From Omphalotus guepiniiformis (Eukaryota > Basidiomycota > Agaricomycetes > Agaricales > Omphalotaceae), in NCBI GenBank assembly GCA_028554645.1, contig JAQOOI010000019.1, positions 992,001 through 1,056,000 on the forward strand: a DNA stretch of 64,000 nucleotides, read 5' to 3'. A program made the position numbers and the translations under genes. The notes beneath the pieces were generated by a model. It had not been told where the DNA came from. It did not search any database and was given only the letters and a program-made list of their open reading frames with translations. Shown here one piece after another: positions 25,618 to 39,972 of this stretch (positions are counted from its first letter, which is position 1; every line of letters begins with the position of its first letter).

Positions 25618-26857
25618 TGATGTGCTTGGTATGGGGTATGAATGAGAAGAAGTGCTAACTAACTCGAATGAATCTATCAAGCACTCAAAACACACACACA
25701 ACACACAAAGACTTTTAAGTTCGTGGGGTTTGGGGGACTAACAAACTCTGTGAAGCGAATAAGGTTGTTGTAAGAGGAACGCGGAGACACAGTCAAAACC
25801 GACGCGGCACAGATAACTCTATGCTACACACCACTCAAACAAACTAAACGTGTAACTTTAACAAATCACCGCGACCAGTGACTACAAACGATACAACAAC
25901 CAGACGATTGTTGGGAGATGCCAGACGACTTCTCACTTAGTGGAGTTGGGTATAGGAGGATTTCAGAACTGCCAGACGACGAGTTCAACGAGTGACCAGA
26001 CGATCCACTCTTATTCGCACTACACACACAGGCTCCGCGGTACCAGACGATCCCACTTGTAAACACTTAGGCACACTGACTTATGAACTAACGCGACGGT
26101 TAACACTTTAAAACTTCTAATCACTCAGAGGGACTTAAGCTTTTCCACACACAAATGCTATTAGCTCTATGGGGGGCTCGGGAACCTGTCCTTCCTTGCC
26201 CAGGTTCTATTTCTTATATACAGTATCTCTATTTACATAGTACAAACAAATGTCGCGATACTTGACAGTTATGAGATATATGGTGCATATGGTGCACCGC
26301 GTAAGGTAGGGATGAAGTATAGTACGCGGTAACAGGGTATCCTATATCGGGTTATAATCTTGCCGCTTTTAGAAAGTATCGCGGTAGTTCGCTAACACTG
26401 TGTCTCCTTATGTGTTCTACTTCCGCGTCGTCGGAAGTACTTCGTGTTACATCGTACGTCTAGACCCTTCTGTGGCTCAACAGTGGTCATTAGATATGAC
26501 TAGTGCACGGAGCTACTGCTACCTGGTTTCTAAGTCTGGCCTTCTGAGTAGTGCCGCGGTACTTCGTTACCTACGCGTTGGTTTATACAGTATTGGGGCC
26601 ATCAAGTTATACACGTCGGACCTTAGAACAAGTGCCGCGACGCTTTACTTGAGTGTATACTTAGGTAATACCTACACTGAGAAGACCCATTTAGTGCCGT
26701 TCTACAGTCTTGTACACCTTTGTACACATATACTAGTGGTTGAATGTGCGTAATACACCGCGTAACTTAGGACTATACAGTGTACTTAGTAGGTTTGTAC
26801 TGGAGTGATCAATCCCGCGAGGCCGAAAATGGTAGTGGTATTCCCGCGGTCGTATCA
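25618..26857 (-). repeat. 3' LTR
   Basis: 1,240 bp; starts TGATGTGCTT and ends GGTCGTATCA on the plus strand. Offset to the other copy is exactly 13,115 bp throughout, so there are no indels, and open frames inside both copies translate identically. Confidence 0.95.
25900..26050. repeat. five direct copies of CCAGACGA inside the LTR
   Basis: Copies at 25900-25907, 25921-25928, 25972-25979, 25996-26003 and 26043-26050 (TCGTCTGG in element sense). The same set recurs in the other LTR 13,115 bp away. Spacing of 21, 51, 24 and 47 bp suggests a transcription-factor or enhancer array upstream or downstream of the LTR promoter. Confidence 0.75.
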
Positions 26858-26866
26858 TCTCCCCCT
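26858..26866 (-). other. polypurine tract
   Basis: AGGGGGAGA on the minus strand, directly abutting the 3' LTR; the expected plus-strand primer of reverse transcription. Confidence 0.7.
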
Positions 26867-27238
26867 GACTAAAATATCGACTGTCCCAGTCGCTGGGGTC
26901 CTACTCAGGTTCTATCCCGGAAAGGCGCATCAACCTCCCTTTTCTGGATATCACAAACTTCTTTCTGACTCATGTAGCGCTCTCCCTCCTTCTTGTCACA
27001 TCACATGCCATCACGTTACCTTATTGGTAAATCGCCGCGTCTCTTCATTCCTCATCGTCCGGTTACGTTAGTTCCCGGACATACCGGTTATTCAGTTAAT
27101 GGATTGCCATCGCTTCTTTGTCAAAGCTGTATGTCGTACCCTGAATAAGTGTGTAATACATCAAACTTTTGCTCTCGCGTCTTCTAGGAATGGAACTTGA
27201 TACTGGCACCATTCTGAGGACCCCATCGCCGCGAGGTG

Positions 27239-27245
27239 TATATAA
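27239..27245 (+). promoter_or_regulatory. TATA box of cargo gene A
   Basis: TATATAA, 58 bp upstream of the ATG at 27303 and on the strand opposite to gag-pol, suggesting that the cargo gene has its own promoter. Confidence 0.6.
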
Positions 27246-27302
27246 CCTTCAGCGCCCGGGTGTCGAACTTCAACTTTTTGCTCCCTCTTTCATCACTGGT
27301 TT

Positions 27303-29580
27303 ATGCCTATCAAGGCTGAACCCCTTGACTATAACTCTTTAATAGTAAGTGACGCGGTACTTTTTGCGTGTCTTCTTTGCTTAGCTCCGTTTGATAGGCT
27401 TTTTCTCCTACTGCTTCTGAGGCCGCCTTTATTATGCTTTCTTCTCAACCCTCGACTTCACGCGTACACAAACGAAGACGACGCGACGCTTCGCCTCGAC
27501 CCTCTTCTACTTTGCCTTCCGTCCCGGACAGCTCACAGCGGTCTATATCCGCCGCGGAGCTTATCTTGCTTGAACAGATCCGTACCGGGCAACTTTCCGT
27601 TCAACCTTCCGTGGTACTTCCCATTCCTTCGAACATTCCCGAGGCTTTAGCACCCGTACGCCGTCGTCGAGAGCGCCGTGATAAGGCTTTGTCTGTTCTC
27701 AAGAAACGTCGTGCTCGTCATCCTAGTCAATCTGCTCTGGTTAGTTCCGCGTTCGTTTTATCTGTTGTATTTAACTAACTTGCGGTAGCTTACTCCCGTT
27801 ACCGCTGAGGATCAGGCGAAATTCGCCGATGACTTTTTGGCGTTCCGTGACGAGACCTATTCGCTCCCTCCCGCGACTCCTGTGCCTACTGCCGTTACAA
27901 CTCGTCCGCGGCCTCCTCGTACTTTGTCTGACTTGGAGCGCCAACCCTGGCCCACACGTCTAGTAAGTACTCCTTTGTTCCTTGTCTACTAACTCTTCTT
28001 CTCATTCTTATCCTTAGTTTGACGACGAGGCGGTCGAGTCTTCCAACGAGGGCTCTCCTCCTGCTGCCAAGCGTCGCCGTGGCCCTTTGCGCAAACGAGT
28101 AGAGAGTGATTCTGAGGCTTCCGCGGTGCCTGATAACTCCGTTGGTATTGTGGCTGCTGTATCCTCAGTGACGCGAGACTTGCCTCCCACAGCGCCAACT
28201 CCTCGCTTCGTGAGTAATTCCTGTTATTCCAACTAGTTTTACTCACTCTACTTCCCAGTCTTTTTCTCGTTCTCCCCCTCCTGTGGACTTATCGCAAGGG
28301 TTCACTGTTACTGCCGCGGAACCTTCGGTTCCTACGAACCTTATTCCTGTCACTCCTACACGGTCCCCACTGGTGGAATCTGGTCCCGCGCCTCTCACTC
28401 CTTCTGGTGTCCCAGCCGCATTTTCTCCTCTGACTAGTACCGTACCCGTTCCTCCTGCTGTACCTGTGCTACCTTCAACTTCCGCGGTTCCTTCTTCTGT
28501 GGCAGGACCCTCGACTTTCGTGGAGCCTCCTGCTACTACTCAGGTTGGAACCAAGGTGAGTTCCTTCCCTGTTTAAGCTGCTTCGTTGCTTATTTCTTTT
28601 TCAGGGCAAAAGAAAAGCTTCGCGGAAGTCTAAACTAGCGACAAAAACTACCGCGTCAACTATTCAAGAGGCCGACCGCTTTCGTACTCCCTCTCCTCGC
28701 CCAGGCGACCTCGAAACTAGACGTCGGTTTCTTCGTGAAGTCGAGGGTTACCCCCAATATTGGTACGAGAAAGTTTTCCCCGCCGCGGAGCACTTTGGTG
28801 CCTTTATTCCTCACAACCTTCATCCCATCGAGAAGGGGGACAAAGCCACCGCGGTGCCTACTACCGTAGGTGGCTCTTACGAAGGAGGGGTCCGCTGGTA
28901 TACGGCTAACAACATCCCCGCAAATGGTTTCATTAACTATGACCTACCGGGTATGGTACCTCCGCTGATGACAAGTCACATTCGCCTTCGCCAGATTGTG
29001 GCTTCTTCCGTGAACCTGGTAAGTTCTTCGATACTTTTTCTTCTTACTTCTCTGATTACTTCTTAGCCCTCCATTCGCTGTGGGTCGTGCATTATTCACG
29101 GCAAGCCTTGCGTCTTCGTCAAGGCCGGGGAGTCATGTAACGAGTGTCTTAGCAAGAAGGACTCCGCGTGCACCTTTCGTTATGGGATTCGCAAGATCGC
29201 GTTGGAGGATGAAGCTTTTCACAACCGCGGACTCTTTTCTGCGCGCCGTATGTCTTCTCCCTTACTACTTTCCCTTTTCTCTGATCTTTCCTTTAGATGC
29301 TATGTCTCTGCAACTTGAAGCGTCAATGCTTACTGACCGCTTGAATGAACAAGTTGCCGCGATGCACGGTATTCAGAAAATGGCTCAAGCCAAGATCGAC
29401 GAACTCGCGGATGTTTTAGTACAGGGTTACTATAACTTCGGTCGCGACTATTTGACGCAGGTCCGCCTTAGTGGTGACCTTGCTCAAATGATTGTGGATG
29501 AGAAGATCCTGCCCGCCATCGAGGCTGGGCAGCTCAAATCAATCAACGCGGCATCCGAACATCAGGCATATCAGAAATAG
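27303..29580 (+). CDS. retrotransposon cargo protein A (antisense, spliced, Cys-cluster)
   Basis: Not a known retrotransposon function. ATG at 27303 (MPIKAEPLDYNSLI); eight exons joined by short GT-AG introns all keep frame to TAG 29578-29580, about 600 residues. Order: a basic KRRRRDASPR segment, a helical stretch with VRRRRERRDKALSVLKKRRA, Pro/Ser/Thr-rich linkers, a folded-looking block (LREVEGYPQYWYEKVFPAAE to RLRQIVASSVNL), a Cys cluster IRCGSCIIHGKPCVF...CNECLSKKDSACTF with six regularly spaced Cys resembling a zinc cluster, and a C-terminal helical domain (EASMLTDRLNEQ to YYNFGRDYL). A nucleic-acid-binding role is inferred from the Cys cluster and basic patches. Introns can persist because they are antisense to the element's genomic RNA. 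Confidence 0.75.
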
Positions 29581-30063
29581 TGGTCCCTGCCTTCTCTGTT
29601 CATTTTCTTGCTCTGGTTCCGCGGAAGTAAAAGCTCTTAGTCTCGTAGTGTTTGTAGTATCGCGGAGCTTGTTTTTTTCTTTATTTTATTACTTGGAAAT
29701 GTTATTAGCTTTGTCTCGAGTGATTTTAAACTGTGTGACATTTTCCTTGTTCTATAAAATCGAAAATATTCAAGAAATTCTACGCGGCACTTTTCCCAAA
29801 TTCACGCGATTCTACGCGGTACTAAACTGTACGCGGTGCTTTCTATTCCTACGACCCTTCCCCATCTTTGAAATCACAACTGTCCCCAGTTGTTCAGAAC
29901 ACTCGCGACGCTTGGTAAAGTACCATATGTTCCACCGCGTCAACTTTGAAGGACGGTGCGCGGAATTAGAATTCTACGCGGACAAGGTTCCTTCTGGTCC
30001 AGACTGCCCTGGCCAGTTATAAAAGGACCTCCAAACACTAAGTTCTTCCTATCTGAATCACTT
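29581..30063. other. spacer between cargo genes A and B
   Basis: About 480 bp, AT-rich with frequent CGCG tetranucleotides; contains the TATA box of gene B and presumably the 3' end of gene A. Confidence 0.5.
30018..30025 (+). promoter_or_regulatory. TATA box of cargo gene B
   Basis: TATAAAAG, 39 bp upstream of the ATG at 30064. Confidence 0.65.
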
Positions 30064-31503
30064 ATGTCTACTGATACTTCTTCTGTTGACGTCCAGTTTC
30101 TCGTGGAAGAGGTAGCACCTCTTTACAAGTCGTTTAGCGAGCGTCGAGTCAAACGTGGTGCCGACGATGCTAATCGCGTCGCGATGTCGTGTGCACAAAA
30201 ACTCGCAAGTTTTCTAATGTTCTGCCTTCTGTTCCTGCGCCTTACTTCACTCTTTTTAGCTCGAGCTCTGGAAAGCTCACCCTGATGCCGCGTTGGCTAA
30301 CGCTGACATTCGTACTTTCACTCTGTTCTTCTTTGAACAACTGCCGCGGGACCCAGTTACCGCGAAGTATACACCAACTCATCATTTACTTGGTCCGTAC
30401 CGCGGTAAATGTGTTCAGTTTGGTAAACCCAAGGAGGTTCCCAAAGTCGCCGCGGCTGCTCCTGTTCCAACTGCTGTAACCCCAGCGCCCGTCAAAGGCA
30501 AAGGTCGCGTTCGTACTAGCCGCCGCGTAAGTAATCAGTTCTTTTTCTTGAATAACCACTGGTATTAAAACTTTTTCCTAGATTCGCAAGCGTATTGCAT
30601 CCCAAGCTCGTATTGATAGTAGTGACGAGGAGGTTGACGACGACGCGGCGGGTAGCGATATTGCTATGGGTGACGATGAATCCCCCTCTATTGCAGATTC
30701 CACTACTAATACCACGGTAGGTCGCCACCCTACCCCGAGCCAGCTTGCTCTGTTGCTAAAACTATGTACCTCGCTTCAGACTCTCGACCTCGCAGCAGTT
30801 GAAGAAGTTACCCGCGTTGCCCCCTTTACTCCAAAGGTTGAGCCTAGCGTCGCGGCAGTTAAAAGGGTACGACCACCATTCCTTCTCCCAATGTTATTCT
30901 GACTTAACGTTCCTTTCATAGCCTCACGCGTCGACTAATCACCCCGTAAGATATCTCCACTTTTCTGAGATACCACGCATGCTTATTACTTCACGGCAAT
31001 ACCTTAAGGCAGTTGCCGCGGTGGATAAGAGTACCATCAATCCTCCTGCCAAGAAAGCTAAGATGGAGGTGGTTAGTGTCGCGGCAGCTCCTCCTACTTG
31101 GGCGCACAACTTCTCTATGCTCGATCCACCTCTGGCACCCCCTAGTACGTGTCACGTTTTCATACCGCCGCTAGCGACTTTTCGACTAACCTATCTTTTG
31201 GTAGACCCTGTCTCCACTTTCTCTAACTCGGTTGTGCAGTCACTCGTTGATCGTGCCAATCTCGCGGTGCTCGAACCCGTTAGTGGGCCTACTGATCGTA
31301 GCCTCACCATGCTGGAGTTCGAGACTCGCTCTAAACTTATCGCGGTCAACCATCAGATCAGTCTCCAGCTCCAAATGCGGGATTTGCTGATGAAGAGCTA
31401 CCAGAGCATCGCGTCGCAGCAGAAGGAGCTGGTTAATAAAACTAACGTTCCCCTTATCGATATGACTGGCGACGAAGATATGCCCTCCGTGACTGATACT
31501 TGA
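30064..31503 (+). CDS. retrotransposon cargo protein B (antisense, spliced)
   Basis: Unrecognised. ATG at 30064 (MSTDTSSVDVQFLVEEV). The first intron begins GCAAGT after QKL and ends TTTTTAG, a GC-AG intron; three more GT-AG introns follow, all in frame. About 410 residues. The N-terminal ~120 residues look globular (LELWKAHPDAALANADI, TLFFFEQLPRDPV, LLGPYRGKCVQF). Then come Ala/Pro/Lys linkers with a basic GKGRVRTSRR patch, an acidic DSSDEEVDDD patch, a helical TPSQLALLLKLC segment and a C-terminal coiled-coil-like region (LTMLEFETRSKL to QQKELVNK), ending SVTDT, stop 31501-31503. It converges on pol with a 220-bp gap. Function unknown; it could assist mobility or be captured host sequence. 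Confidence 0.7.
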
Positions 31504-31723
31504 ACTGCTTCTGGAACTTTTCTTGTGCTTCCGCGACACTTTTTAATCTTCTTGTCGTGAATAGAGGTACCGCGTAACTTTCCGTTTCCCTTCCGCACTT
31601 GTATTCAACTATCGCGTAAACTTATTTATTTCCAATTTGTCGTGTATATTTCAACATAACACGTACAGATCATACACTCGTTTTTATAATAAAACTGCCA
31701 TGTGGCCCTATCTTTTGAGTGAT

Positions 31724-34700
31724 TTACTGAAAGATCTTCGGCTTCGATATCCAGTGCTTCGCGTCGTATACTGAAACGTCCGCGTGAATTTCACCATCTA
31801 GGTCTGCTTGATCGTGTTCTACGGATAAATCTTCTTCTTCTTCTTCTAGACCTTGTTCAATTCTCAACAAGCCATCTTCTGACAAACCAATCAACTCACT
31901 TAGGTTCTCAGGGAGTTCAATGTGCGACCTTGGCCAATATGGAATTACGCGGAAGGCTCCGATTTTATTCTGGAACACCGCACCATTTAGGTCTGCCACA
32001 ATGTAACTGCCACCTGTGGTACGCCTGAGTACTACCATAGGTCCTAAATAGCGCGGCTTCGTTTTAGAGTTCAAAGATTTTTCAATCTGAGTATTCCTAA
32101 CTAATACCAAACTACCTGGCTTAAACGCGTAGTCTTTAATAACATACTTATACTCTTTTTCGAACTTCAACAACCGTGACCTTTTCTCGCGTGTTACGCG
32201 TTCCCGCAATTCAACTACGTGCTTCGCGTGCTTAGCCAATGCTTTTGCCCGTAGTCCAATTAGTTCCGCGTCACTTATGAAATGATCAGGATATTCTACA
32301 AGCCATGTTGCCTCAACGATATCAAAAGGTAGCGAGGGGTGCGCACCAGTTACTGCGAAGAATGGGGAGCACCCAAATCTCTTTCTTATGGTACACCTAT
32401 CAGCCCACATTACTAAGTAGAAATAGTAAAACCATTTTGAATCGTCACCTCCCGCGGCCTTTATGAGACTGTGTCGCACATCATAATGCGCGTGTTCCAC
32501 AATACCGTTGGCTTGGGAGTTATAAGGTGATATGCGAATACCGCGCACGCCATATTTCTTCTCTAACCATTCCAACGCCTTTAGAAAAGGTCCGCCATTA
32601 TCTGTTACTATCTCTATAAGACAGCCCCAGCGGCATATAATTTCTTCCCACAACCACTGCCCAATCGCTCTTGCGGACTCTGCTTTCAACGGTCTTCCTT
32701 CCATCCAGCCGGTTAACGCGCACCTACCATGTACAATCAGCTTGTAGCCATTCGACGCCGGCATATACATGGTGTCAGCGTGAATTTTCTGAAAGATTGA
32801 CGGTGTCTTCGTCTCGGTAGGAGGAATCCTGATCTTTGTCTTTTGTCTTACTTGGCACGTATGACAGGTCTTCACATACTCATAGATGTCTTTCTCCATT
32901 TCAGGCCACCAAAAGCGTTCCATAAGTAAGGATTTAGTAGCGAAGAAGCCGCGGTGCCCCAGACTATCATGACAAGCATGGATCATGGCGACGCGACGCG
33001 ACTTCTCAACTACCAGCTTATGTTTTGCCTCAATTCCACGTCGATAGAGTTTTCCGTCTTGTATAAAGAAGTTCCGCGCTAACCTTAAAAAGTTCTTGAA
33101 GCGTTTGTTATTCTCATAGCCTACAGGCCTCTTAGAAGTGTCTGTTAGCCATTTGAAAACCTCCGCGACTGTTTTATCTTGGTTTATCGCTCCCTTCGAT
33201 CGCTTAGACTCATCATACTCTGTTTCGTCAATATGCTCTGGTGGCTCCTCGAGTTCTGGTACTTCACTAGCCAAGTTCGCGGCTACAAACTGTTTTACTT
33301 CTGGTATGTCGCGGAACTCTCGTTCTTGCTTATAAGCACGCGTCAATTCTTCCTTAAAGTCGTCTACCGACGCGGCTAAACCAGTCATATAATTACTTTT
33401 CCATTCCTCTTTCTCATCAACTAATACTTGCGCGTAACCATGCTTAGAGTCAATCTTATCTACAAACTCCTCTAATTTATAGGGTTCTTGAACTTCACCA
33501 TCTTCAGGATTGTCATACTCATCGTCTCCTACTTGCTTATCCCGCCGTGATAGTCCATCAGGTCCGTGAACCTTGCCTGGTACGTGCTTCAGTTTAAAAT
33601 GAAACATCATGATCGACTCTATCCACCTATTTATCGCGGCGTTTGGCATTTGATCAGGATGCTCTAACATGCCTTTAATGTACTTCGCGTCAGTTTCGAT
33701 TATAAGGTTGCGAATACCAAACAACCAATACTGGCACGCTCGTAACGCGCGATACAAACCAAACAACTCCCGTTTCGGCTGTGAAAACCTAGCTTCGCGA
33801 TCACTTAGTGTAATCGAACCGAATCTGGAGTAGAACCTTCGTCGCGGATTCTCTGGATCCACTTGACAAATATAGAACCCAACCGCTTTCCACGACGTAT
33901 CTACTGCCAATATAACAGGGTCTTCCACATCATACTTTAGTGGTCGTAATGCCTTGCTATTCTTTACTGCCTCTTTCAACTTTGCCAACGCGTCACTTTG
34001 CTCTTGTCGCCATTCGAACGGAATATCTTTACGCGTAAATCGGGTTAAAGGCTCCGCGATCTTTGCATAGTCTTTGACGAACATTCTTACTAGTCCCGCG
34101 GTGCCTAAGAATGGTCTTATATCCTTCTCTTCTAGGATATTCTCAGGTCCACCCCAGTTGGTAATAGTTTTCGCTCGTTCCGGGTCGATCTCTCTCCCTT
34201 CTCGTGTACACCTATGTCCGACCACGGTAATCTCGCTTTTACACAATACAGCTTTGGGGCCTGAGAAAGTCCCACCACAGTACTTCATTCTTTGAATGAC
34301 CCTATTCATATTGGTGAAATGTTCCCAAATAAACCTCCGTATCCCATCATTACCAGGAATGGTCTCGTACGTACCATCTTCACTTTGATAAGTCGTTTCA
34401 GGACCGCGTACAGGAACATCATCGATGTATGGTTGCGTAAACTCCGGGATCTCTTCTTGTAATATGTGTGTTACATCATCGTGGAAGATTGGTACTGAAT
34501 TCGTCCATCCCATCGGTAGTGTTACTAACCTCAGGGCTCCAAAGGGAGTCTGGAATGTAGTTAAGTCTCGCGATGCTATTGCCAACTCTCTTTCATCATA
34601 GCCAACATATAAATCTAGAATTCCTCCACAAGCTCTACCACAGAATTTCTCCGCGAGCTCTTCAGTAGCAGGCGGTATACCAGAATGTGCTATTGTTACC

Positions 34701-35671
34701 GCGTTCAACGGTTCCAAACTATGTACTAGTCGAATACTCTTTCCGTCTTTCTTTAACACCGCGAACCACTTCGATCGGTAAGACGAGTTCGATGGTTCGT
34801 AAACTCCCGCGTCAATCTTTCGTCTAACTGCCGCGCATACTTCATTAAAAATACCAGGGGGAATAGGAATGTTCCTCTCAACCCAAGGTGTATGAGGTAT
34901 CACGGGCATCTCTACTGAAGGAAAGAAATCTGTTCTGAATCTTCCGCGTTCACTGTCGTCCCACGCGAACCCTTTCTCTTGCTGCATCATCATATGATGC
35001 ATCAACTTCCGTTCTTCTGGCCAAAGGAATTCTTCCTTATGTATCTCGTCTATTATCTCTTTACGTTCCTGAGTATACCTACCAGTCGGCGTGAATTCTG
35101 GAGGATTAGGCGAAAGCTGCGGCATATCAGCCAATGGATCTCCTTTAATCTCTCTTATGATTCTAAACTTCGATGGTAAATCTCCTAGAACAGGGCGTGT
35201 TTTCAACGCGACAGGTTTGTATTTCTTCCCTGCCAAGATACTAACTGGTTCGTAATGTTCCTCCCACAGCCGCGATGCGTGCCTCCTCACTTGATCTTTC
35301 ATATCAGGGGATACATCAAGCATCGCGATGCTCCTTACATCAAACAGGGGAATTTGTTGTAACTCTTCTACGCCGTCTTCTAGCTCTACTTCTTGCACCG
35401 TGAAATTTGCTTGAGAGTACGCGGCAGGATTTTGCGCTCCATACACCGAACTCAAATAGGATCTCAATACGGGTTTCGTCGTTTCTTTATCACTTTTTAG
35501 ATCAATATACTTCTCCGCGGCAGATAAGTATAGATCGCGTAACTCTCGCTTCTCAAACTTTGATTTTTGCTCTTCGTTTATATCTGCAAATACTACATCA
35601 CTTATGCCAATGGGAATACCTTCGTTATTTAATTCAAAAACCACCGCGGCTTCTCCTTGATCTGGGATCAA
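31724..35671 (-). CDS. pol: Gypsy pol: reverse transcriptase, RNase H, integrase
   Basis: 1,315-codon uninterrupted frame. From about residue 270: RT with a WFAVLKKDGKSIRLVHS core, TLPMGWTNSV and the active-site box YIDDVPVRG; RNase H with ILAVDTSWKAVGFYI and IIETDAKYIKG; integrase with an HHCC finger (HDSLGHRGFF...CHTCQ), catalytic HADTMYM, VTDNGGPF and NGIVEHAHYDVRHS (D, D, E), and a GPY/F-like KPRYLGPMVVL module. No chromodomain is visible at the Glu-rich C-terminus. The frame opens at a TTG, not an ATG, and overlaps the protease stop by four bases, so a frameshift at the overlap or reinitiation is needed to make it. All key catalytic residues are present. Confidence 0.93.
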   Translation of the reverse strand: MIPDQGEAAVVFELNNEGIPIGISDVVFADINEEQKSKFEKRELRDLYLSAAEKYIDLKSDKETTKPVLRSYLSSVYGAQNPAAYSQANFTVQEVELEDGVEELQQIPLFDVRSIAMLDVSPDMKDQVRRHASRLWEEHYEPVSILAGKKYKPVALKTRPVLGDLPSKFRIIREIKGDPLADMPQLSPNPPEFTPTGRYTQERKEIIDEIHKEEFLWPEERKLMHHMMMQQEKGFAWDDSERGRFRTDFFPSVEMPVIPHTPWVERNIPIPPGIFNEVCAAVRRKIDAGVYEPSNSSYRSKWFAVLKKDGKSIRLVHSLEPLNAVTIAHSGIPPATEELAEKFCGRACGGILDLYVGYDERELAIASRDLTTFQTPFGALRLVTLPMGWTNSVPIFHDDVTHILQEEIPEFTQPYIDDVPVRGPETTYQSEDGTYETIPGNDGIRRFIWEHFTNMNRVIQRMKYCGGTFSGPKAVLCKSEITVVGHRCTREGREIDPERAKTITNWGGPENILEEKDIRPFLGTAGLVRMFVKDYAKIAEPLTRFTRKDIPFEWRQEQSDALAKLKEAVKNSKALRPLKYDVEDPVILAVDTSWKAVGFYICQVDPENPRRRFYSRFGSITLSDREARFSQPKRELFGLYRALRACQYWLFGIRNLIIETDAKYIKGMLEHPDQMPNAAINRWIESIMMFHFKLKHVPGKVHGPDGLSRRDKQVGDDEYDNPEDGEVQEPYKLEEFVDKIDSKHGYAQVLVDEKEEWKSNYMTGLAASVDDFKEELTRAYKQEREFRDIPEVKQFVAANLASEVPELEEPPEHIDETEYDESKRSKGAINQDKTVAEVFKWLTDTSKRPVGYENNKRFKNFLRLARNFFIQDGKLYRRGIEAKHKLVVEKSRRVAMIHACHDSLGHRGFFATKSLLMERFWWPEMEKDIYEYVKTCHTCQVRQKTKIRIPPTETKTPSIFQKIHADTMYMPASNGYKLIVHGRCALTGWMEGRPLKAESARAIGQWLWEEIICRWGCLIEIVTDNGGPFLKALEWLEKKYGVRGIRISPYNSQANGIVEHAHYDVRHSLIKAAGGDDSKWFYYFYLVMWADRCTIRKRFGCSPFFAVTGAHPSLPFDIVEATWLVEYPDHFISDAELIGLRAKALAKHAKHVVELRERVTREKRSRLLKFEKEYKYVIKDYAFKPGSLVLVRNTQIEKSLNSKTKPRYLGPMVVLRRTTGGSYIVADLNGAVFQNKIGAFRVIPYWPRSHIELPENLSELIGLSEDGLLRIEQGLEEEEEDLSVEHDQADLDGEIHADVSVYDAKHWISKPKIFQ

Positions 35672-36873
35672 TTCCTCGAAGCTGCTGAAAAACCCTGAGT
35701 CTGTTCCTTGTCTTTGCTTATAGGTACAGAACCTTTCTCTCTCTCATAGGTAGGTATAACAGCTCGCTTCTTAGTGTTAGGGTCCTGAATAACGAGGTCC
35801 TGCGTTCCATCTGCATGATTATCCACTAAACTCTCCGTGATCGTGTCAAAAGGCCGTCCCAGTAGCAATTCATACGCGGGGTCTCGAATTACGTGTACTT
35901 GTAAGTACACGGTGATTCCGCCTAGTAAGAATGGTACATTACGCGCCAATCCCAAAGACTTCTCAACACCCTTGTTAGCCGATTGCATAAAGATTACTAT
36001 GTCCGGGTCCCACGATAAACCTGCTTCGCGAGCTCTTTTCTCCGATGTAGAGATAATCTGTGAACCCGAGTCTAGTAGACTTTCGATCTTCGCGGTACCA
36101 TTTACCAAAGGATACACGCATCGAAGCGACTCTGAATCTCTTGCCACGTAGATCTGAATTGGGTTATCTTTGCTTCCCAGGCTTTCCACGTACTGTTCAA
36201 CTGGATCGCTAATCACAACCGCTCCTGCTGGAAGATCTCCTTCCGCCTGTTTCAGAACAAAAACTTCCGCGGTGACATTAAGGTCAGCTAACGCGACTGT
36301 ATTTGCTGTTACGTGAACCTCTCCTACATTTTCCTCGCTAAAAGGTAATAGGGGGCTTTTGGCTAGGATCTCTCTCAAACCTCCCGCGGTCTCTTCAGGC
36401 TTCAATTTGACTCTTGACTTGATTGTTCCTCTGAGTGAAATTTCTGATTCCACTACTGTTTCTTCCGCGTCAGGATGTTTAGTTAACGGAATAACAGGAG
36501 ACTCCGCGGCCTTCTCATTCCTTGTCTTCCAAATTATCCCCCTCGGGTTCTCTAACCGCTCTTTCTGAGCTTTCAGTTTCTCTTGCTCAGTTGGCGAATA
36601 CGACACATCAGGTACGTTCGCGTAAGGAACCTCTGGTACGCGGCTCTTCTTCACTACTGTAGGTAGCGGAGGCATCTCGACACCATCGAATCTCAAACGT
36701 TTTTCCCTCTTGACCAACTCCTTATACTTATCTTTCTCTAGGCTCGCGTCCTTCTCAGGTTCCGCGTCCTTTTCTTTCCACAACCGTCGTTCATTACCCT
36801 TGTTTTCAGTATCATTCTCAGGTGCCGCGGCCCTAACAGGATTTTTCTCTTTTGTAGGGGCCTGGCTTTCCAT
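35668..36873 (-). CDS. Gypsy protease (retropepsin-like) frame
   Basis: 401 codons from the ATG at 36873, eight bases after the gag stop. The first ~250 residues are Lys/Glu-rich and probably disordered; the aspartic protease motif is IESLLDSGSQIISTSEK at about residue 275, followed by LLLGRPFD (the second conserved region). It ends GFSAASRN at TGA 35670-35668, overlapping pol in another frame. A separate protease frame between gag and pol is unusual but seen in some fungal Gypsy groups. Confidence 0.85.
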   Translation of the reverse strand: MESQAPTKEKNPVRAAAPENDTENKGNERRLWKEKDAEPEKDASLEKDKYKELVKREKRLRFDGVEMPPLPTVVKKSRVPEVPYANVPDVSYSPTEQEKLKAQKERLENPRGIIWKTRNEKAAESPVIPLTKHPDAEETVVESEISLRGTIKSRVKLKPEETAGGLREILAKSPLLPFSEENVGEVHVTANTVALADLNVTAEVFVLKQAEGDLPAGAVVISDPVEQYVESLGSKDNPIQIYVARDSESLRCVYPLVNGTAKIESLLDSGSQIISTSEKRAREAGLSWDPDIVIFMQSANKGVEKSLGLARNVPFLLGGITVYLQVHVIRDPAYELLLGRPFDTITESLVDNHADGTQDLVIQDPNTKKRAVIPTYEREKGSVPISKDKEQTQGFSAASRN

Positions 36874-36881
36874 CCTCGAAC

Positions 36882-38645
36882 TTACCGAAAACCCTCCTCG
36901 AACCTTCCTTTCTCATTGTTACTAACTGCCACGTTACTTATTGAATCTCTTGCCGACCCTCGAATATAGGCCGCGCTGAGATTGGATTCTAACACCCTTT
37001 CTTGAGCACGCTTCGCCTCTTCATATTCTTGCCAAACTCTAGTGTACTGTTTATTGTACGACTCGACCTCCTCTAGTTGCATCTGTAGTACCTCAACCTG
37101 AGAAGCTTGTACTTTCTTTTCAGACAGTCTTCGGTCCACAAAGTCTTTCTGAGGAGGCCCATTTGGAGCTTTCTGTGCTACTGGCTCTCCATCTGGCATA
37201 CAAGTGATCCCTTCTTTCAAAATGATCTTTCCATCATCTACGTACTGCTTGCGTACCATACATTGCCCTGCCATATGTCCGTTTAAGCCACAGAACCAAC
37301 ACGTCGCGGCTCGAAAGTAGTCGGGACGGTTGTCATTCAACGCGGTTCTCCCATAGTCCCGCGGCGCCATATATGGTATACGTTCTGGATGCCTGGTACC
37401 GCTACTCGTTCCAGGTGCCGCGAGCTTTAATTGCTCTAGCAGTTTACCCATCATTTCTTCTTCTCTCGCGGCTCTCTGGGTAAGGTTCTTTGTTTGGATC
37501 GTGATTAGATCTTTCAATTCCGCCACCCATCCTTCCGTTTGCTCATGCTTCACTTTTTCTACCCTCTTTCCTCTATCTTCCTTCGCGGCCCTTACGTTCC
37601 CAAGACTAATTACTTCCTCAACCTGAGATCTCGCGTTAAATTCTGCCTCGTCCAGAATCTCTTCTGCTGTATAGGCATCATCTCTCGGTCTAGCCTCTGC
37701 AGGTGGGTTCGCACGCTTTTGTAACTTCAAAGTCAACGTGATGGATCTCCAAAATTCATCTTCAAACATTCCGCGGAGGACTCTGACAATTTCTCTGTTA
37801 GTATACAACGCGGTCGTAGTGTAGTGCTTAAGGAACGGCCTTAGGGTATTCCTCATTCTTAATACATCTTCGAGATCTTCCATCGTTATATTCTTATACT
37901 TCTTCGCGGCTCTTTCGAATTTTGCGAAGGAGAAAGTTCCCTCGTCCGATCCTCCATCATAACTCTTCAAAATCTCGTCGCGGAACTCGATAAACGTCCC
38001 TTCCTCTTTCTCGTACGTAGGCAACGCCTTCCATTGTTCTCTTATAGTTGCGGGTAGGTAACGCAACGCGACTGATTTCTTATCCGCTTCTTCCTCTATT
38101 TTGAAATCTTGGATAATATCCTCAATCTCCCCCAGATAGTCTCTGACGTCGTCTACATCATGATCGCGACGCAAATCTGGTGCTCCACGTTCTCTTCTCC
38201 TCGGAATCTTATCCATAGCCGGCATTTTTATGATATTTTCTTGAATTATAGGTAAAATAGGTGCAGAGTTCGGTGAAATATGTAAATCAAATAGAAGTGT
38301 GTGGACTTCGGATAGTTCCTCGTCCGAATGAGAATGTCTATCAATAGTTGGTGGGACTACTGAGTTTCGACGCGACGGTGGGTCTGGCCTAGGAAATTGA
38401 ATTGAAGTACCTTCTCCGTAATCAGATAGTTCTTCGTTAAAGTTCCGCGACTGTCTAATACTCGAATCTTCCGCGTCAACTACGTTAATCGATTCTCGGG
38501 GTTGAACAACAACTTCAGGATGTGACTTCCTGTAGCTACTAACTCTTTTGATTGCCTTTGCACGTGCTAACGACTCTCTGGTATTCTCTACCGTTGAAGG
38601 CCGTGAACTTCGCCTAGACGTTTTGTCTGATTGTTGGTTAGACAA
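36882..38645 (-). CDS. gag: Gypsy gag with CCHC zinc knuckle
   Basis: 587 open codons, capsid/nucleocapsid precursor. The central capsid-like region contains VALRYLPATIREQWKAL and FIEFRDEILKSYDG; the nucleocapsid knuckle is CWFCGLNGHMAGQC (C-x2-C-x4-H-x4-C), around residue 460. A Gln/Glu coiled-coil segment follows. The open frame begins just after a stop, with a TTG at 38645; the first in-frame ATG is 38225 (MPAMDKIPRR). The 140 codons upstream look coding (Arg/Ser-rich), so a non-AUG or spliced start is possible. Stop TAA 36884-36882. Confidence 0.88.
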   Translation of the reverse strand: MSNQQSDKTSRRSSRPSTVENTRESLARAKAIKRVSSYRKSHPEVVVQPRESINVVDAEDSSIRQSRNFNEELSDYGEGTSIQFPRPDPPSRRNSVVPPTIDRHSHSDEELSEVHTLLFDLHISPNSAPILPIIQENIIKMPAMDKIPRRRERGAPDLRRDHDVDDVRDYLGEIEDIIQDFKIEEEADKKSVALRYLPATIREQWKALPTYEKEEGTFIEFRDEILKSYDGGSDEGTFSFAKFERAAKKYKNITMEDLEDVLRMRNTLRPFLKHYTTTALYTNREIVRVLRGMFEDEFWRSITLTLKLQKRANPPAEARPRDDAYTAEEILDEAEFNARSQVEEVISLGNVRAAKEDRGKRVEKVKHEQTEGWVAELKDLITIQTKNLTQRAAREEEMMGKLLEQLKLAAPGTSSGTRHPERIPYMAPRDYGRTALNDNRPDYFRAATCWFCGLNGHMAGQCMVRKQYVDDGKIILKEGITCMPDGEPVAQKAPNGPPQKDFVDRRLSEKKVQASQVEVLQMQLEEVESYNKQYTRVWQEYEEAKRAQERVLESNLSAAYIRGSARDSISNVAVSNNEKGRFEEGFR

Positions 38646-38712
38646 CCGCGACTATAACTCTTCGGTCTCGTACGAAACCTAAAACACTTTACTTAGTTTA
38701 TTAATCAGAAAC

Positions 38713-38730
38713 CCCTCGCGGTGGGCTCCA
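38713..38730 (-). other. primer-binding site
   Basis: On the minus strand, two bases after the 5' LTR, TGGAGCCCACCGCGAGGG. It begins TGG, complementary to the CCA end of a tRNA. I cannot name the tRNA without a search. Confidence 0.65.
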
Positions 38731-38732
38731 GA

Positions 38733-39972
38733 TGATGTGCTTGGTATGGGGTATGAATGAGAAGAAGTGCTAACTAACTCGAATGAATCTATCAAGCACT
38801 CAAAACACACACACAACACACAAAGACTTTTAAGTTCGTGGGGTTTGGGGGACTAACAAACTCTGTGAAGCGAATAAGGTTGTTGTAAGAGGAACGCGGA
38901 GACACAGTCAAAACCGACGCGGCACAGATAACTCTATGCTACACACCACTCAAACAAACTAAACGTGTAACTTTAACAAATCACCGCGACCAGTGACTAC
39001 AAACGATACAACAACCAGACGATTGTTGGGAGATGCCAGACGACTTCTCACTTAGTGGAGTTGGGTATAGGAGGATTTCAGAACTGCCAGACGACGAGTT
39101 CAACGAGTGACCAGACGATCCACTCTTATTCGCACTACACACACAGGCTCCGCGGTACCAGACGATCCCACTTGTAAACACTTAGGCACACTGACTTATG
39201 AACTAACGCGACGGTTAACACTTTAAAACTTCTAATCACTCAGAGGGACTTAAGCTTTTCCACACACAAATGCTATTAGCTCTATGGGGGGCTCGGGAAC
39301 CTGTCCTTCCTTGCCCAGGTTCTATTTCTTATATACAGTATCTCTATTTACATAGTACAAACAAATGTCGCGATACTTGACAGTTATGAGATATATGGTG
39401 CATATGGTGCACCGCGTAAGGTAGGGATGAAGTATAGTACGCGGTAACAGGGTATCCTATATCGGGTTATAATCTTGCCGCTTTTAGAAAGTATCGCGGT
39501 AGTTCGCTAACACTGTGTCTCCTTATGTGTTCTACTTCCGCGTCGTCGGAAGTACTTCGTGTTACATCGTACGTCTAGACCCTTCTGTGGCTCAACAGTG
39601 GTCATTAGATATGACTAGTGCACGGAGCTACTGCTACCTGGTTTCTAAGTCTGGCCTTCTGAGTAGTGCCGCGGTACTTCGTTACCTACGCGTTGGTTTA
39701 TACAGTATTGGGGCCATCAAGTTATACACGTCGGACCTTAGAACAAGTGCCGCGACGCTTTACTTGAGTGTATACTTAGGTAATACCTACACTGAGAAGA
39801 CCCATTTAGTGCCGTTCTACAGTCTTGTACACCTTTGTACACATATACTAGTGGTTGAATGTGCGTAATACACCGCGTAACTTAGGACTATACAGTGTAC
39901 TTAGTAGGTTTGTACTGGAGTGATCAATCCCGCGAGGCCGAAAATGGTAGTGGTATTCCCGCGGTCGTATCA
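38733..39972 (-). repeat. 5' LTR
   Basis: Second 1,240-bp LTR copy, upstream of gag in element sense. Carries the same CCAGACGA array (39015-39165) and a TATATAAG box (39328-39335, minus strand). Confidence 0.95.
39328..39335 (-). promoter_or_regulatory. TATA box of the retrotransposon promoter
   Basis: TATATAAG in sense orientation within the 5' LTR. A 7-bp inverted repeat (GAACCTG...CAGGTTC, 13-nt loop) starts about six bases downstream, at 39297-39322. Confidence 0.6.

Follow-up and report, generated by a model that had tools for sequence, protein, structure and literature searches.

We analysed a window of 64,000 nucleotides from the basidiomycete Omphalotus guepiniiformis (contig JAQOOI010000019.1, positions 992,001 to 1,056,000, forward strand) that contains a young Ty3/Gypsy retrotransposon with long terminal repeats (LTRs), a copy of the family that we call F1. 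Between its pol gene and its 3' LTR the element carries two genes, A and B, that run antisense to gag-pol. Our results support A and B as functional coding genes with many introns, and sequence comparison indicates that this layout is a lineage trait, that gene A is an exchangeable cassette and that several families are dotted with a short motif of their own. In F1 and F2 the motif exceeds synonymous expectation in coding sequence. We propose, tentatively and with a little less than even confidence, that these elements form a lineage of fungal Ty3/Gypsy in which A and/or B would bind the DNA of their own element and counteract silencing as the plant VANC proteins do. The features needed first are these:

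25618-39972, minus strand: whole F1 copy, a young Ty3/Gypsy LTR retrotransposon
27303-29580, plus strand (antisense to gag-pol): coding sequence of gene A, 8 exons, 641 amino acids, between pol and the 3' LTR
27303-27344, 27398-27739, 27789-27962, 28018-28209, 28259-28555, 28605-29018, 29067-29247, 29297-29580, plus strand: predicted exons of gene A
29067-29247, plus strand: exon 7 of gene A, with a six-cysteine motif CX2CX6CX8CX2CX7C, then a phase-1 intron
30064-31503, plus strand (antisense to gag-pol): coding sequence of gene B, 7 exons, 362 amino acids, between pol and the 3' LTR
30064-30204, 30260-30526, 30582-30716, 30780-30866, 30922-30945, 31009-31144, 31205-31503, plus strand: predicted exons of gene B

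A sequence-only reading of this DNA had assigned to the element two intron-bearing antisense genes of about eight and five exons. Splice models, ratios of nonsynonymous to synonymous substitution (dN/dS) and recurrence across copies confirm the two genes; the count of eight was correct for A and B has seven exons. As that reading also held, all intron joins keep the frame (641 codons in A and 362 in B), and a candidate TATA box stands 39-58 bp upstream of each ATG: TATATAA for gene A and TATAAAA for gene B end 57 and 39 bp before it, respectively. The introns are 48-55 bp long in A (phases 0,0,0,0,0,0,1) and 55-63 bp in B (phases 0,0,0,0,0,1), and all are GT-AG except one GC-AG in B of the window copy, where the first intron (window 30205) has a GC donor that is GT in the other eight copies tabulated. 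Introns this short would suit a basidiomycete. Gene B is 362 codons long in each of the seven copies checked, and its dN/dS is 0.06-0.19 (15 pairs among six copies). For gene A, dN/dS is 0.19 against the allele of copy L033 and 0.08 against that of L025. Gapped alignment columns number 0 in exons and 2-4 in introns of gene B (four comparisons), and 0 and 4, respectively, in gene A against L025. The diverged L033 allele of A (58% protein identity) gives 164 gapped columns in exons, yet it is open through 635 codons with introns of different lengths; its intron borders were transferred by alignment, and introns 3 and 5 of the seven start with GG and CT, making these two junctions approximate. 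Gene A looks broken in L026 and L027, and the frame of L028 differs from that of its sister L029. Since exons keep the frame, indels fall in introns and dN/dS between copies is 0.06-0.19, A and B are probably functional coding genes, and we infer that they are transcribed and spliced.

Whenever the RNA of a retroelement is spliced and then copied, introns of the element may be lost; an antisense position, used here for two genes, avoids the loss. In the proposed mechanism the introns of A and B would go unrecognised in the genomic RNA owing to their orientation and would persist through retrotransposition. This explanation, already given in the sequence-only reading, fits the absence of clean intron loss in the tabulated copies (0/9). 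A partial remnant of intron 4 (12 bp) is present in the broken-looking gene A of L026.

In the species' own genome (42.5 Mb, 80 contigs) the region from the first base inward of the 3' LTR (26858) to the base preceding the pol stop (31723) has at least 43 matches (40 scored of 68 candidates), and pol is found at 97-100% identity in at least 30 places (35 scored of 623 candidates). All 13 F1 copies aligned with the window retain the A/B region between pol and the 3' LTR, which bears out the idea that homologues occur in other copies of the element rather than only as host genes. Two further families share the layout. F2 pol is 51% identical to F1 pol, and F3 pol is 72% identical to F2 pol; at least 33 places were listed for F2 and at least 26 for F3 (59 scored of 476 candidates). 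Downstream of pol and antisense to it, F2 has an A-like and a B-like gene of six exons each; as in F1, the last intron of either gene is in phase 1. F3b and F3c likewise carry antisense A and B downstream of pol, according to an exon-by-exon reading rather than full splice models. The six-cysteine exon of F3b matches those of F2b and F3c (E = 1.5e-6 and 6e-6), as does its last A exon (E = 1.7e-13 and 7e-7), and its first and last B exons are found in F2b (E = 4.6e-11 and 1.5e-13). The expectation that homologues always lie antisense downstream of this pol type thus holds for F2, F3b and F3c. It fails for F3a (locus L039, C78:632500-641000), which retains the later B exons but is without A and the first B exons. 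At least five places share this F3a stretch (40 scored of 295 candidates), so there A and B are dispensable in cis or provided by other copies. Because the antisense layout recurs in F2 and F3 of this genome, it is, judged by sequence, a trait of the lineage, and to call A and B cargo was wrong: they are conserved genes of the element.

The protein of gene A diverges fast. F1 A is only 14-19% identical to A of the other families, yet all six aligned sequences (two F1 alleles, F2, F2b, F3b and F3c) share the six cysteines without exception. Zn(II)2Cys6 clusters have the spacing CX2CX6CX5-12CX2CX6-8C, which fits both F1 alleles; the second spacer is 8-10 in F2, F2b, F3b and F3c. The six-cysteine motif described earlier stands. 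The label "zinc-cluster-like" came from cysteine spacing, and the Pfam model PF00172 matched one of the six A sequences at E = 3.2 only. We consider that A probably binds zinc through these cysteines. A profile of the region gave 54 weak matches to solved structures, none better than E = 0.015; the two alignments inspected cover helical parts, with the cysteines outside. AlphaFold applied to exon 7 of A alone gave a predicted local distance difference test score of 50.5 and the model was not used. A Pfam search with F1 A and B gave no family at E <= 1. Among 5.8 billion proteins no match was found to A residues 340-641 (3219 candidates) or to the gene B protein (7996 scored), which is weak evidence of absence because the database, to judge from its source labels, seemingly consists mostly of unspliced metagenomic predictions. 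Pol residues 900-1300 have 698 relatives in the same database, among metagenome and genome proteins (best 69% identical), so this type of pol is widespread. No relatives of F1 pol or of part of F2 pol were found in viral contigs.

Divergence within F1 is concentrated in gene A. We retrieved 20 regions, 13 of which were aligned with the window; the other seven are 98.3-99.8% identical to it over the part covered. In nine copies (L028-L036) identity to the window is 55-70% in gene A, 79% in the A-B spacer and 96-99% in gene B, and 96-100% in the LTR and leader except in L032 (86-87%). L026 and L027 are 77-84% identical to the window in A and 95-96% in B, and L024 and L025 are 93-100% identical in A. 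The boundary of the diverged part is sharp near 27300 and gradual over about 29600-30000. Between the window and L033, synonymous divergence is about 1.9 in A, near saturation, and 0.08 in B, meaning that old A alleles sit on young backbones. F2 and F2b, compared by eye, have nearly the same B exon translations (one residue difference seen, in the last exon) and clearly different A. From these comparisons gene A is an exchangeable cassette, a new feature, and the exchange would most simply have come about by template switching during reverse transcription.

The second line of evidence comes from short words dispersed over the elements, in F1 as follows:

25618-39972: dispersed CCGCG/CGCGG (core CGCG), by density relative to the flanks

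CGCG occurs 159 times in 25618-39032 (11.9/kb), against 70 times in 1-25617 (2.7/kb) and 78 times in 39033-64000 (3.1/kb), a flank that contains 940 bp of LTR. GCGC is not raised in the element. For CCGCG, 134 sites were observed and 13.9 expected from the flanks. The motif is different in each family, namely CCGCG in F1, CTAGACCC in F2 and AGTTAGATACT in F3a and F3b. Words were scored with an order-2 Markov model of each sequence itself, the null being the maximum of 20 simulations, which reached up to 1e-6.2. The top word is CGCGGC in F1 (43 against 7.1 expected, p = 1e-19) and CTAGACCC in F2 (13 against 0.4, p = 1e-15.8). GTTAGATA is found 11 times in F3a (0.2 expected, 1e-14.9) and 8 times in F3b (0.2 expected, 1e-10.0), and F2b has CTAGACCC six times (0.1 expected), ranked below a microsatellite. 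In four host segments the top words reach 1e-5.2 at most, inside the simulated maxima. Each motif is high in its own family alone: CCGCG at 10.2/kb in F1 and 0.2-1.3 elsewhere, CTAGACC at 1.4-1.5/kb in F2 and F2b and 0-0.4 elsewhere, GTTAGAT at 2.6/kb in F3a, 1.0 in F3b and 0-0.15 elsewhere. A dense motif specific to the family was thus found in F1, F2, F2b, F3a and F3b, and not in F3c. With up to two mismatches, F2 sites number 41 and 36 in the two orientations (5.7/kb, host 1.8); the F2 motif is non-palindromic, and its presence in both orientations makes action as DNA more likely than as RNA. They occur at 6.3-10.0/kb over protease, LTR, gag and pol; leader, A, spacer, B and the gap between B and pol have 2.6-3.9/kb, and the brief 5' untranslated segment has none. 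In F3 one strand has more sites than the other (7/16 and 8/13), and the matrices, read by eye, extend the sites to an inverted repeat like TTGAGT-TAGAT-ACTCAA. Tandem arrays are only seven here, short and with scores of 30-40, and the motif occurs in coding exons too. Three candidates were set aside: GATTAATC in F3c (two copies only), CAGACA in F2 (a microsatellite in the LTR) and GTAAGTA (at least partly splice donors).

The excess in coding sequence was measured by shuffling synonymous codons within each gene. In F1 the z score of CCGCG plus CGCGG is 8.0 in gag, 6.2 in the protease frame, 9.2 in pol, 6.6 in A and 4.8 in B, against a maximum of 1.4 among the other CpG tetramers tested. The word CTAGACC scores 5.3 in pol and 3.6 in gag of F2, where CGCG shows no excess. 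Three host frames and a 2-kb pol fragment from outside the clade have no excess of CGCG, CCGCG, CTAGA or CTAGACC (z <= 0.8). The motif in coding sequence of F1 and F2 is therefore above synonymous expectation. Sites also tend to stay in place between diverged F1 copies. In A plus spacer, at 63-64% identity, CGCG is kept at 15 of 34 sites and control tetramers at 9 of 94 (window against L028, and separately against L033), with CGCG totals of 34, 37 and 38. Between L028 and L033 the same region keeps 28/37 CGCG and 52/104 controls, and gene B of the window and L033 keeps 21/21 and 59/70, respectively.

VANDAL elements are Mutator-like (MULE) DNA transposons, and VANC/VANDAL is, to our knowledge, the best-studied system in which an element's protein binds the DNA of its own element. 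We suggest that A, with its probable zinc-binding motif, and/or B would bind the short family-specific motif across the whole element, and that this binding would keep an integrated copy accessible or transcribed despite host silencing, in the VANC/VANDAL manner. That an element protein binds its own DNA is suggested because the motifs are family-specific, the proteins diverge fast and have a probable metal-binding motif, and the motif is kept in coding DNA; binding by A or B and its anti-silencing outcome are what we infer from this combination. In Arabidopsis, VANC21 binds YAGTATTAY and VANC6 has targets with AGTTGTCC or AGTTGTAC; each of the two proteins removes DNA methylation (PMC5735166, accessible part). 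VANC is also encoded by the element, is a fast-diverging multi-exon protein and has its own dense short motif in each family (PMC5735166). VANDAL differs in that it encodes a transposase and its motifs are mainly non-coding, in tandem repeats; and binding and loss of methylation have been demonstrated for VANC, whereas F1-F3 are known from sequence (PMC5735166, same part). Membership of VANC/VANDAL, taken as a DUF1985/DUF287 protein on a DNA transposon, does not apply to an LTR retrotransposon whose A and B lack a Pfam match. Should A or B bind at the motif arrays, anti-silencing by self-recognition would extend from plant DNA transposons to fungal retrotransposons, the coding sequence of gag and pol would be under a second, DNA-level code, and a different word per family in one nucleus would be a natural experiment. 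Somewhat more doubtful is the wider claim that such self-recognition and anti-silencing evolved independently in retrotransposons, with synonymous positions in gag and pol among the places that hold the word, and the rapid exchange of A reflecting an arms race with the host.

Several observations weigh against self-DNA binding by A or B. F3a, which has neither A nor the beginning of B, keeps the motif and would have to depend on proteins made elsewhere. The two F1 alleles of A, in spite of 58% protein identity, share CGCG, although their six-cysteine stretches are near-identical by eye (68% over 139 residues); because of this and the absence of A from F3a, the reader of the motif, A or B, is not singled out. 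In a 966-bp pol piece of F3a only one of five words reaches z = 3.0 (AGTATC). F3c has gene A and no convincing motif, its AT-rich words being barely over the null (AATAATG, 1e-6.1 against 1e-5.2). In F2 the density of motif sites is lower in A, spacer and B (2.6-3.8/kb, host 1.8) than in gag-pol, and secondary words are raised without explanation, GCTCGA/CTCGAGC in F2 and AGATTG in F3b. F1 introns are poor in CGCG (two in 703 bp), while VANC targets are mainly non-coding. Between the window and L026, in which A looks broken, CGCG is kept no better than controls, at 16/34 against 51/96 in A plus spacer and at 14/19 against 44/55 in LTR plus leader. The control from outside the clade is a single 2-kb fragment, and F3 copies are represented by 4995-8011 bp each. 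Finally, the best matches of F1 A and B at the F2 locus are not significant (E = 0.24 and 0.67), so that homology between F1 and F2 is based on position, order, cysteines and intron phase.

A or B may bind the motif in the role of an ordinary regulator of transcription or copy number, like the retroviral accessory proteins HBZ and Tax. The motif evidence is equally compatible with this, and plant antisense accessory genes have been proposed to be regulatory (PMC7264820, accessible part). The sites of a regulator would be expected mainly in promoters, whereas those of F1 are equally dense in pol, gag and LTR, and we regard such a role as unlikely, if worth keeping in mind. It is less probable still that mutation, codon context or host defence produced the motifs as a side effect with no relation to A and B. 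The missing motif of F3c, the decay of L026 sites at the rate of controls and the CGCG-poor introns of F1 would all agree with a by-product; the excess at synonymous level in five genes on two strands, with other CpG tetramers flat, and a distinct motif in each of F1, F2 and F3a/b within one genome with flat controls speak against it.

The motif could also mark copies as landing sites, or help to sort element DNA, with A or B as a targeting or self-nesting factor. The left flanks of F1 (loci L001-L039) are NCGN in 17 of 19 distinct LTR-adjoining 4-mers and CTGN in the other two, and one F1 copy (L031) lies inside an F1 LTR, where its insertion point is the ACGC of a CGCG site. In F2 the one copy examined has GCGC on both sides. 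CpG seems to be favoured as integration site by the lineage, but the F2 motif is free of CpG, which separates the motif from the target preference, and we give targeting little credence. We think it very improbable that antisense transcription itself is what matters, with A/B transcripts and genomic RNA forming double-stranded RNA that tunes silencing: such a role has been suggested for plant elements (PMC7264820, same part), but low dN/dS, frame-keeping exons and invariant cysteines mean that the protein products are selected. Captured host genes carried as passengers would have introns and TATA boxes like those of A and B; this we reject almost entirely, since F1, F2, F3b and F3c all have A- and B-like genes in the corresponding position, and neither A residues 340-641 nor B has a database homologue while pol has hundreds.

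Antisense genes of other retroelements resemble A and B in part. The HBZ transcript of human T-cell leukemia virus type 1 is spliced and comes from a single gene starting in the 3' LTR, and we know of no dispersed motif there. HBZ resembles A and B as an antisense retroelement gene, its product being nuclear (PMC11963269, accessible part). The statement that no described Gypsy family has this layout is not supported, as Retand, Grande, RIRE2, PvRetro13 and the fungal Boty/brtn have been described with antisense genes in the same interval, from pol to the 3' LTR; the accessible accounts of Retand, Grande and Boty/brtn do not mention introns. Retand, defined by TRP28, is similar in that a long stretch separates pol from its 3' LTR and in having lineage-conserved antisense genes with a product predicted to bind DNA (PMC11963269, accessible part). 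It is a plant element, the word intron is absent from the main text of PMC11963269, and about half of Retand elements have tandem repeat arrays, unlike the few low-scoring ones here; A and B of F1 do not match TRP28 (PF04195). Boty/BcGypsy1 of Botrytis cinerea is a fungal Gypsy with one extra antisense gene, brtn; we set it apart by its description, in the accessible sources, as a single gene and not by sequence comparison. The Boty-like gag-pol with brtn is described there as having a chromodomain, for which F1 pol has no Pfam match. Gene23 of maize Grande is antisense between pol and the 3' LTR, with its own promoter and a nuclear product, but it is one gene in a plant (PMC7264820, accessible part). 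No report of multi-intron antisense genes or of family-specific dispersed motifs in LTR retrotransposons was found in a search that left most subscription journals out of reach. As far as our searches reach, three features are new: the pair of genes with many introns, the exchange of A as a cassette, and dispersed motifs specific to each family.

The remaining parts of the F1 copy are as follows:

25618-26857, minus strand: 3' LTR, 1240 bp, identical to 38733-39972
38733-39972, minus strand: 5' LTR, with CTGC at both outer flanks of the element
After the 5' LTR: TGGAGCCCACCGCGAGGGG, primer-binding site by position
36882-38651, minus strand: gag-like frame, 589 amino acids from stop to stop, named by position and by a CX2CX4HX4C knuckle in its translation
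35668-36912, minus strand: protease frame, overlapping the gag and pol frames
31724-35743, minus strand: pol frame, 1339 amino acids, with Pfam RNase H and integrase H2C2

The LTRs, the target duplication, gag (by position) and RNase H ahead of integrase in pol place the element in Ty3/Gypsy. The gag-like frame has no Pfam match, the protease frame matches aspartyl protease models under their curated cut-offs (E = 7.6e-5 and 1.1e-4), and reverse transcriptase was not matched in pol by the Pfam search. An Rfam scan of 20-45 kb gave no match. The gag, protease and pol frames overlap (35668-36912), and expression therefore implies frameshifts or splicing in the sense direction. In the LTR part 25895-26060, 8-mers of the CCAGACGA type are seen by eye about five times. 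Part of the gag of an F2-like element (L040, reverse complement 39-485) borders an F3b copy, and F3a has an F1 LTR next to it (L039); the families F1, F2 and F3 seem to nest within one another.

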